Positions 11,255 to 40,259 of a stretch of 64,000 nucleotides of DNA are shown here, in pieces. Each line of letters begins with the position of its first letter. The stretch's first letter is position 1. The stretch spans positions 3,162,001 to 3,226,000 of the forward strand of contig NZ_CP026952.1 of NCBI RefSeq assembly GCF_003065605.1. Reading direction: 5' to 3'. The DNA comes from Aeromicrobium chenweiae (GTDB lineage: Bacteria > Actinomycetota > Actinomycetes > Propionibacteriales > Nocardioidaceae). The position numbers were made by a program, and so were the translations under genes. The notes under the pieces were generated by a model that searched no databases, was not told the origin of the DNA, and worked only from the letters and a program-made list of their open reading frames with translations.

Positions 11255-11362
11255 TCAGTAGACGCCGCACATGCCGTCGATCGAGACTTCCTCGATGAGC
11301 GACTCGGCGGTGACGGGCGTGGCCTCGGTGTCGACGACGTCGACGGTCGGGGTCTGGTCCAT
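11255..11362 (-). CDS. mftA: Mycofactocin precursor peptide MftA
   Basis: 35 residues ending IDGMCGVY, the near-invariant core of mycofactocin precursors; the terminal Val-Tyr pair becomes the cofactor. The leader is acidic (for example ESLIEEVS), which suits recognition by MftB. The ATG at 11362 is preceded by AGGAGG (11367-11372). It is the first gene of the operon, behind an elaborate hairpin described separately. It is shorter than most annotated bacterial genes and easily missed. Confidence 0.96.
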   Translation of the reverse strand: MDQTPTVDVVDTEATPVTAESLIEEVSIDGMCGVY

Positions 11363-11370
11363 GGTTCCTC

Positions 11371-11411
11371 CTGTGGTCGGGGTCACAGCCTCCTGTGACG
11401 TGAGACCACAG
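11371..11411. promoter_or_regulatory. Nested-dyad hairpin between mftA and mftR (candidate MftR operator / 5'UTR element)
   Basis: Plus strand: CTGTGGTC (11371-11378), GTCACAG (11382-11388), CTGTGAC (11393-11399) and GACCACAG (11404-11411). The four half-sites begin every 11 bp and alternate in direction. They form a perfect 7-bp inner stem with a 4-nt loop inside a perfect 8-bp outer stem. In the mftA direction the sequence CACAGGAGG occurs twice, 22 nt apart: once across the hairpin loop and once as the mftA Shine-Dalgarno. That it binds MftR is inference. Confidence 0.75.
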
Positions 11412-11470
11412 TAATGGCACTCAACGCCAAAAAGAAAGGGTGTTGACAAAACTGCTACGTTCCTCGCGTC

Positions 11471-12079
11471 ATGACAGCCAGTTCTGCGCGCGCCCAGGGT
11501 CGCCCCTCGGCCACCGACCACGCGGCGATCGAGCGCGCGGCGTTCGCACTGTTCGCCGAGCAGGGCTTCGACGAGACGACGATGGAGGACATCGCCCGCG
11601 CCGTGGGGGTCGGACGCCGGACCCTCTTTCGCTACTTCCCCTCCAAGAACGACATCCCGTGGGGGCAGTTCGACGAGAGCCTCGAGTACTTCCGCCGCCA
11701 GCTCGCCGCGGTCCCTGCGGACGTCCCGCTCGCCGACGCCGTCCACGACGGCGTGGTCGCGTTCAACAGGTTCGACGACGCCGCGCTCGACCAGCACCGC
11801 TTCCGCATGCGCCTCATCCTCACGACGCCGGCCCTCCAGGCCCACTCGGCCATCAAGTACGAGGCCTGGCGCCGCGTGATCGCCGAGTTCGTGGCGCAGC
11901 GGCTCTCGTTGGAGCCGGACGGCCAGCTCCCGCGCCTCGTCGGCCACGTCAGCCTCGCGCTGTCCGTCGCGGCGTACGAGCAGTGGCTCGACGAGCCGGC
12001 CAGCTCGCTGACCGACCTGCTCGACCAGGGGCTGAGCCTGCTGCGGACGTACGCCGGGAGCGAACGACTCAGGCCCTGA
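11471..12079 (+). CDS. mftR: TetR-family regulator MftR
   Basis: 202 residues. The N-terminal TetR HTH covers AIERAAFALFAEQGFDETTM to RTLFRYFPSKNDI (about 18-65), followed by an all-helical ligand domain. Its divergent position 108 bp from mftA and its sequence match the regulator typical of mycofactocin clusters; mycobacterial MftR is reported to respond to acyl-CoAs. A -10-like TACGTT (11456-11461) lies 9 nt before the ATG and no clear ribosome site is seen. The stop lies inside the long terminator hairpin. Confidence 0.92.
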   Translation: MTASSARAQGRPSATDHAAIERAAFALFAEQGFDETTMEDIARAVGVGRRTLFRYFPSKNDIPWGQFDESLEYFRRQLAAVPADVPLADAVHDGVVAFNRFDDAALDQHRFRMRLILTTPALQAHSAIKYEAWRRVIAEFVAQRLSLEPDGQLPRLVGHVSLALSVAAYEQWLDEPASSLTDLLDQGLSLLRTYAGSERLRP

Positions 12080-12110: not shown

Positions 12111-12119
12111 TTCGTGCTG

Positions 12120-12201
12120 TGGCAGGTAGAGGGTTCGAACCTCTGTAGGCTGAGCCGTCTGATTTACAGTCAGATCCCTTTGGCCACTCGGGCAACCTGC
12201 C
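12120..12201 (-). tRNA. tRNA-Tyr (GTA)
   Basis: Acceptor stem GGCAGGT/ACCTGCC (12195-12201 with 12121-12127) with discriminator A at 12120. The anticodon arm is CTGACTGTAAATCAGA with anticodon GTA, there is a long class II variable arm, and the T arm is GAGGTTCGAACCCTC. The 3' CCA is not encoded. It is transcribed leftwards towards the convergent mftR. Confidence 0.95.
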
Positions 12202-39217: not shown

Positions 39218-39771
39218 CAGCGCATCAGGCCCTTCATCGCGGAGGTCGGCGTGGCGAGCAGCGCGGTGCGCTCCTCGTCCTTGATCTCGGCGAGACGGTG
39301 GGCACCGAGCTTCTGGTGCTGGATCTGGTCGTGCAGCTTGAGGATCGCGTCGATCAGCATCTCGGGGCGCGGCGGGCAGCCCGGCAGGTACATGTCGACC
39401 GGGACGACGTGGTCGACGCCCTGGACGATCGCGTAGTTGTTGAACATGCCGCCCGAGCTCGCGCAGACGCCCATCGCCAGGACGTACTTGGGACCGGCCA
39501 TCTGGTCGTAGATCTGTCGCAGGACGGGCGCCATCTTGTTGCTGACGCGCCCGGCCACGATCATCAGGTCGGCCTGGCGCGGCGAGGGGCGGAAGACCTC
39601 CATGCCGAAGCGGGCCGAGTCGAACCGCGGCGCGCCGAACGTCATCATCTCGATCGCGCAGCACGCGAGGCCGAACGTCGCGGGCCAGAACGACGCCTTG
39701 CGCATGTAGCCGGCCAGTCCCTCGACGGTCGAGAGCAGGACCCCCGACGGCAGCTTCTCTTCTAGTCCCAT
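39217..39771 (-). CDS. nuoB: NADH-quinone oxidoreductase subunit B
   Basis: 184 residues beginning [10 protein letters not shown]. The N2 ligands are in [19 protein letters not shown] and LPGCPPRPE. It overlaps nuoA by 10 nt. Confidence 0.96.
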
Positions 39772-40121
39772 TCCAGACCTCCACGGCGCCAGACGTAGGC
39801 GTAGGCGATGAACACCGTCGCCATGAACAGGAACATCTCGATCAGTCCGAACCAGCCGAGCGAGTCGAAGGCCACGGCGAACGGGTAGAGGAAGATGATC
39901 TCGATGTCGAAGATGATGAACAGCATCGCGATGATGAAGTAGCGGATCGACACCTTGCCGCCGCCCTCGGGCAGCGGACTGGGCTCGATGCCCGACTCGT
40001 AGCGATCGAGCTTCGCGCGGTTGTAGCGCTTCGGGCCGGTCAGCGGCGCGATCGCCACACTGCCGACGGCGAAGAGGGCGGCGAGCCCACCCAGCACGAG
40101 GATCGGCGTGTAAGCCGTCAC
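39762..40121 (-). CDS. nuoA: NADH-quinone oxidoreductase subunit A
   Basis: 119 residues, three helices, with [16 protein letters not shown] in the conserved loop and [15 protein letters not shown] in helix 2. It is the first gene of the 14-gene operon. The GTG start at 40121 is preceded by GGGAGG, so this operon has a leader of about 70 nt, unlike the incomplete copy. Confidence 0.95.
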
Positions 40122-40164
40122 GACACCTCCCGGAGCTCAGCTGAGAATCTTCCTGATCGCGCGC

Positions 40165-40182
40165 TTGTGAATTGCTTCACAA
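40165..40182. promoter_or_regulatory. Rex-type redox operator of the complete nuo operon
   Basis: TTGTGAATTGCTTCACAA, two perfect 7-bp arms around TTGC. This matches the Rex (NADH/NAD+-sensing repressor) consensus TTGTGAAN4TTCACAA; in Streptomyces Rex represses nuo. It also fits the Crp/GlxR pattern TGTGA-N6-TCACA. It lies about 10-27 bases downstream of the predicted transcription start, a position suited to repression. Confidence 0.75.
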
Positions 40183-40197
40183 CGTGATCAGGGTCTC

Positions 40198-40226
40198 ACC
40201 CTACGCCCGGCGAATGTCAGTTGTAA
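40198..40226 (-). promoter_or_regulatory. Promoter of the complete nuo operon
   Basis: On the minus strand, TTACAA (40221-40226) and TAGGGT (40198-40203) are 17 bp apart. Predicted start of transcription is near 40191, just upstream of the Rex-type operator. Confidence 0.6.
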
Positions 40227-40259
40227 CTAAGGTCACACTAAGTCGGTGACCGGGGGTCC

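Follow-up and report, generated by a model that had tools for sequence, protein, structure and literature searches.

The four half-sites lying between the divergent genes mftA and mftR in the window, i.e., the whole 64-kb stretch of Aeromicrobium chenweiae DNA analysed, are probably a DNA operator, and MftR is probably the wrong protein to assign to them. According to our favoured but still tentative reading of the sequence, they would represent a further operator region, probably that of Crp, situated immediately downstream of the MftR one, from which the start of mftA could be blocked. The half-sites would form two neighbouring dyads beside the operator of MftR, and the Crp/GlxR-type protein of the genome is the candidate binder. 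The wider and more interesting result is that a second dyad is conserved at the mftA promoters of relatives.

Architecture of the Array

The mycofactocin precursor gene mftA is on the minus strand at 11255-11362 (TIGR03969, 53.6 bits, cut-off 25), with its ATG at 11362. The divergent mftR, coding for the TetR-family regulator MftR, is on the plus strand at 11471-12079 (TIGR03968, 259.8 bits, cut-off 224.9) and is directly followed by a tRNA-Tyr gene on the minus strand (12119-12201). Read on the plus strand, the half-sites are CTGTGGTC (11371-11378), GTCACAG (11382-11388), CTGTGAC (11393-11399), and GACCACAG (11404-11411), and their starts at 11371, 11382, 11393, and 11404 are separated by exact 11-bp steps. 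The outer inverted repeat (11371-11378/11404-11411) has arms of 8 bp and the inner one (11382-11388/11393-11399) arms of 7 bp, both 100% complementary. On the mftA strand, CACAGGAGG is present twice, at 11397-11389 and 11375-11367, 22 nt apart, and the outer stem has 2 nt in common with the AGGAGG of the second copy. The first-pass annotation had described all of this, namely the half-sites with their coordinates and steps, the 8-bp stem around the 7-bp stem, the doubled motif, and the 2-nt contact of the outer stem with the ribosome site, and the sequence agrees with it exactly.

In the mftA sense, the array consists of dyad A, CTGTGGTCTCACGTCACAG (TGTG-N9-CACA, 11393-11411), which is centred on the predicted transcription start and represents, in its local form, the dyad found in relatives, and dyad B, CTGTGACCCCGACCACAG (TGTG-N8-CACA, 11371-11388), which is placed in the predicted 5' UTR and touches the Shine-Dalgarno sequence. 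The 11-bp steps result from two similar dyads lying about two helical turns apart. When the 108-bp region 11363-11470 was shuffled 3000 times with dinucleotides preserved, a perfect inverted repeat of at least 8 bp with a loop of at most 25 was obtained in 75 shuffles, and a nested pair (at least 8 bp around at least 7 bp, loop of at most 8) in none. The nested pair of inverted repeats occurs once in the 64-kb window.

Loci Compared

In total, 198 mftR loci were collected. One search contributed the best 80 of 139 matches, the remaining family-level matches were added, and from a class-level search the best-scoring 30 of roughly 100 places were taken. No recognisable mftA was present in the DNA examined at 44 of the 198 loci, among them L026-L030, which are below the MftR cut-off. 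The other 154 loci gave 120 distinct mftA upstream regions, and 119 were counted after L190, whose operator was misplaced by the scan, had been left out. A count over 57 similarity clusters was added because the rows are related. Within Aeromicrobium, mftR was found in 11 of 49 genomes, at 12 loci. In the MftR tree, the window groups with L007, L033, L036, L006, and L038 in one clade with support of 100/100. Some genomes have two or three mftR copies (three mftR matches in G407), and A. ginsengisoli (G246) carries two mftR-mftA loci, L006 and L038.

Promoters of mftA and mftR

The Shine-Dalgarno sequence GGAGG of mftA (11367-11371, minus strand) is 4 nt from the ATG, and a second GGAGG (11389-11393, minus strand) spans the inner hairpin's loop; two copies were found in the window only, among the 119 regions. 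The -10 element of mftA is TACTGT (11408-11413, minus strand). A TANNNT box is present in 114 of the 119 regions, starting at position 9 from the operator centre (position 0) in 97 and at position 8 in 17, and owing to this conserved placement the mftA transcription start is predicted at about 11401. A possible -35 element, TTTCTT with a spacer of 18 (11432-11437, minus strand), was positioned from conservation; TTNNNT at -15 to -10, giving a spacer of 17-18, is present in 68 of 119 regions. A generic sigma-70 promoter scan gave no match at the mftA promoter. If both elements are valid, MftR would sit in the promoter spacer. An in-frame GTG at 11386, behind the first of the two GGAGG copies, was considered as an alternative start of mftA and rejected; its distance from GGAGG is only 2 nt, and inspection by eye showed that the frame is not kept in L036.

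For mftR, the likely -10 element is TACGTT (11456-11461, plus strand; recognised by eye), and as it lies only 9 nt before the ATG, the mRNA is probably leaderless or nearly so. By eye, a TANNNT box is located 6-9 nt before the mftR start at 11 of 12 loci inspected.

The MftR Operator Adjoins the Array

In the available sections of the Mycolicibacterium smegmatis study (PMC8728441), MftR is described as protecting a single region, a 27-bp footprint of TCCATTCTGGCACTCGATGCCATATAT, with the operator palindrome T-N2-GGCA-N5-TGCC-N2-A. The published account also has MftR of M. smegmatis leaving its operator on acyl-CoA binding. A gap-free alignment of the 119 upstream regions with the published operator places the operator core of the window, GGCGTTGAGTGCC in the mftA sense, at 11416-11428 on the minus strand, and the footprint-equivalent 27 bp at 11410-11436. 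The window copy reads TTTCTTTTTGGCGTTGAGTGCCATTACTG in the mftA sense. Of the 10 bases fixed in the palindrome it has 8, and L169, L173, and L176 have all 10. Over the 119 regions aligned on the operator, G at +4 is present in 119, C at -4 in 118, and T at +3 in 117. The MftR helix-turn-helix segment RRTLFRY is identical in the window and in L169, L173, L176, and L188, with differences in other residues nearby, and these four loci have the mycobacterial-type operator. A second GGCA-N5-TGCC palindrome was seen by eye 26-40 bp downstream of the first in L018, L050, L052, L064, and L093, and a second MftR-type palindrome upstream of the first in L066.

As the footprint-equivalent is 11410-11436, the array begins at the end of the MftR operator and shares 2 bp with it, and the palindrome T-N2-GGCA-N5-TGCC-N2-A is absent inside 11371-11411. 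The first-pass annotation had suggested as one possibility that the half-sites are the operator of a dimeric regulator, which is still the best reading of them, and had named MftR as this regulator, for which no support was found. MftR was rejected as the binder of the array because the published operator lies adjacent to it, and its predicted binding place in A. chenweiae is herewith corrected to the adjoining palindrome. The region resembles O_mft of M. smegmatis in being the same divergent mftR-mftA region with the palindrome, here at 11416-11428, but the half-sites of the window are outside the operator, of another sequence, and not part of the 27-bp footprint as given in the available text (PMC8728441). 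A genome search for the MftR operator (at most one mismatch) gave 38 forward and 34 reverse matches, compared to 22 and 26 for the reversed control, and the copy of the window was among the matches; therefore, no MftR regulon can be read from these counts.

A Dyad after the -10 Element Is Conserved in Relatives

TGTG-N8-CACA with at least 7 of 8 bases was found at positions 8-18, just after the -10 element, in 77 of 119 regions. In 300 shuffles that preserved base composition and kept the -10 element, the same range gave 2.4 regions on average and never more than 8. By similarity clusters, the dyad is present in 30 of 57, with a shuffle maximum of 4. Shuffles for the dyads kept base composition only, and the shuffled stretch ran from 15 bp past the operator centre to the ATG. 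The dyad is in register 12 in 44 regions, in register 14 in 30, and elsewhere in 3. Other spacings were also above the shuffles, i.e., N10 (45), N3 (33), N5 (31), N6 (21), and N13 (13), with N8 the strongest; in our view this excess is due to repetition of the half-sites (GTGTG, CACACCACA). With two main registers and several spacings exceeding the shuffles, the spacing of the dyad is not strict. The N8 dyad is absent in 42 of the 119 mftA upstream regions, including those of Pseudarthrobacter siccitolerans L045, Arthrobacter sp. L046, Nonomuraea L093, Microtetraspora L048, L050, and L074, and Thermocatellispora L052. At loci with the mycobacterial-type operator (e.g., L169 and L171), the dyad reads TGCGATCTCGATCACA.

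Eleven of the 12 mftA regions of Aeromicrobium have the N8 dyad 13-15 bp from the operator centre, with 7 or 8 of 8 bases in ten and 6 of 8 in one. The exception is the window, where dyad A departs from the N8 core with its N9 spacer and an exact copy, dyad B, is found farther downstream, at position 35 from the operator centre and 22 bp downstream of dyad A. An exact N8 copy beyond position 18 was found in none of the other regions among the 119, and a 7/8 copy there in three others (L016, L175, and L194). The core of dyad B (11372-11387) matches TGTG-N8-CACA in 8 of 8 bases and is one mismatch from TGTGA-N6-TCACA (9 of 10 consensus bases). The A/T expected at the fifth half-site base is present on one side only of each dyad (TGTGA...CCACA and TGTGG...TCACA). 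In the four-way alignment with L007, L033, and L036, dyad A of the window is one base short. The first-pass annotation had made its proposal dependent on conservation in relatives; in the alignment the promoter-proximal dyad recurs, but the full dyad B is not present in these three nearest relatives, which carry only its left half. As the simplest history, a 1-bp loss in the lineage of the window probably spoiled dyad A, and dyad B would have been built two turns downstream, in the predicted 5' UTR, where it may have taken over from dyad A or may add to it.

A Crp/GlxR-Type Protein as Candidate Binder

A search of the genome with one Crp helix-turn-helix model gave one strong match (L199, 246 aa) and one weak match (L200). 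The best solved relatives of L199 are 3i54 and 3d0s (E about 1e-77), which we take to be Crp of M. tuberculosis; L199 is identical to 3i54 over GASRETVNKALADF in the alignment and has the helix RETVNKALADF. L199 passes no NCBIfam cut-off, the best model being CRP with 103 bits vs. 266. Sites of TGTGA-N6-TCACA with at most one mismatch number 50 in the genome, and those with N7 and N5 spacers 14 and 11, compared to 4, 0, and 6 for the respective reversed-pattern controls; dyad B is among the 50 N6 sites and dyad A among the 14 N7 sites. Exact TGTGA/TCACA pairs occur three times with N6, once with N7, and not at all with the other spacers from 0 to 14. Several observations speak against Crp as the binder, among them the low score of L199 and the 42 regions without the N8 dyad. 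In the genome, exact TGTG-N8-CACA reaches only 24 vs. 15, and CTGTG-N6..12-CACAG was counted 8 times vs. 32 in the reversed control. Within the window, TGTGA-N6-TCACA with at most two mismatches was found six times, which is rarer than the shuffle mean of 13.1. Two such CRP-type sites, one exact and one with one mismatch (40166-40181 and 40222-40237, 40 bp apart), follow a ubiE-type gene and immediately precede nuoA (39765-40124, Pfam Oxidored_q4); control of respiratory complex I by Crp/GlxR is possible in this genome.

Compared to the CRP/GlxR site (TGTGA-N6-TCACA), dyad B is identical in spacing and agrees in 9 of the 10 bases, and a Crp-type protein is encoded in the genome, but the spacer of dyad A is one base longer and the fifth half-site base in relatives is often not A/T. 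The placement at the start fits repression as described for M. tuberculosis, where CRP bound near the start site was associated with it, and for E. coli, in the available text of PMC4117774. From the same source, the whiB1 promoter of M. tuberculosis similarly has tandem CRP-type sites in one promoter; the sites there are activating and inhibitory, whereas here both are at or after the predicted start.

The literature was searched for links of mycofactocin, or of Rv0691, to CRP or cAMP and for transcription starts. Control of mft genes by Crp is not stated in the open-access texts of PMC5741622, PMC6435705, PMC8022548, PMC5550956, PMC6851703, and PMC9214030, and no mention of CRP or cAMP was found in the accessible text of the MftR study (PMC8728441). 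In PMC5741622, as far as its open text goes, underexpression of whiB1 in M. tuberculosis raised mftE 5.2-fold and mftF 4.7-fold, and whiB1 is a CRP target according to titles cited there; hence, an indirect cAMP route to the mft genes via whiB1 is possible.

Alternative Explanations

That two MftR dimers themselves occupy the array on one face of the DNA, as first proposed, is very improbable. Operators of TetR-family proteins that take two dimers (QacR type) do have several half-sites on one DNA face, and the array is similar to them in this respect; the array also overlaps the footprint-equivalent by 2 bp, and some relatives carry the second downstream palindrome noted above, which makes an MftR site on this side conceivable in principle. 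However, MftR is the TetR member in question and already has a different palindrome adjoining the array. The second sites of relatives follow the GGCA-N5-TGCC pattern, no clear similarity is seen between CTGTG half-sites and GGCA/TGCC, and the single protected region in M. smegmatis also argues against MftR on the array. A role of the array as an RNA element, i.e., a hairpin in the 5' UTR that protects the mRNA or presents a decoy or standby ribosome site, seems improbable too, and the RNA reading is mostly unsupported. Transcription from about 11401 would leave the outer stem's 5' arm (11411-11404) upstream of the start and outside the mRNA, and only the inner inverted repeat (11382-11399, minus strand) is expected in the transcript. 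This inner stem, wholly downstream of 11401, has counterparts in four of the six clade members (the window, L007, L033, and L036) and pairs in 23 of 24 cells over these four Aeromicrobium sequences, with one double change, and L007 folded from its predicted start gives z = -2.2, the best case. Against the RNA element, covariation of the inner stem does not exceed shuffles (246/500), the stem is absent in L006 and L038 of the same clade, and for the window folded from 11401, z is +0.9 when 30 nt of coding sequence are included and -0.4 when 12 nt are. For the full hairpin, the folding energy is -29.1 kcal/mol (z = -0.6) if the fold takes in 30 nt of coding sequence and -24.7 kcal/mol (z = -1.7) if it takes in 12 nt (dinucleotide shuffles in both cases), and with these z values its energy is unexceptional for GC-rich DNA. 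The standby ribosome site suggested in the first-pass annotation found no support, as covariation shows no excess, the outer stem pairs in only 15 of 32 cells over the four sequences, and among the 119 regions doubled CACAGGAGG or doubled GGAGG occurs in one, the window, so that a conserved Shine-Dalgarno-like loop with a paired outer stem was not found. A short 5' hairpin stabilising the mRNA is possible.

Two further explanations concern the dyads as DNA. The array could be a second operator of another dimeric regulator reading about GTG[GT]-N6-[CT]CAC, which on the sequences compared is unlikely. Among the 77 N8 dyads, the fifth half-site base is A on the left in only 14 and T on the right in 31; the left half-site prefers G/T there and the right half-site C/T, and in 53 the sixth left base is C. 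These preferences are unlike a plain CRP site, and the dyad is locked to the -10 element. Arguing against this regulator, there is no candidate gene for it, N8 is the CRP spacing, and both a Crp-type protein and enriched sites are present in the genome. It is also conceivable, though rather doubtful, that dyad B arose by chance or is the functionless remnant of a short tandem duplication that doubled CTGTG...CACAGGAGG, and that the shared dyad alone matters. The left half alone in L007, L033, and L036 is consistent with this, and so are the halves of the array, which are 22-23-bp units with identical ends; against it, the nested arrangement was not reached in any of the 3000 shuffles, and the exact N8 form missing from dyad A is found in dyad B. 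A functionless dyad B is compatible with Crp as well as with another regulator at the shared dyad, and the probabilities given to these explanations do not sum to one.

Implications for Control of Mycofactocin Biosynthesis

If the second operator region belongs to Crp, the protein, sitting on +1 or immediately past it, would prevent initiation or hinder early elongation. The promoter would then carry two locks, with MftR placed before the -10 element and the second protein on the start and, in the window, also on the early transcribed region. Because the second protein at +1 would block transcription, mftA would be off unless MftR, bound by acyl-CoA, and the second protein have both left. The broader claim, that cAMP-Crp/GlxR directly controls mycofactocin biosynthesis at the start site in several actinobacterial families including mycobacteria, with the site moving downstream in the window, is possible but put forward with considerable reserve. 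If it is true, the mycofactocin redox cofactor would be under a gate requiring both acyl-CoA and cAMP, and the genome of the window would present a start-site operator caught shifting two helical turns downstream. In the literature as available to us, one direct regulator (MftR) and one signal class (long-chain acyl-CoA) are described so far; a second conserved operator, plausibly that of Crp, predicts a second signal for switching mycofactocin on.
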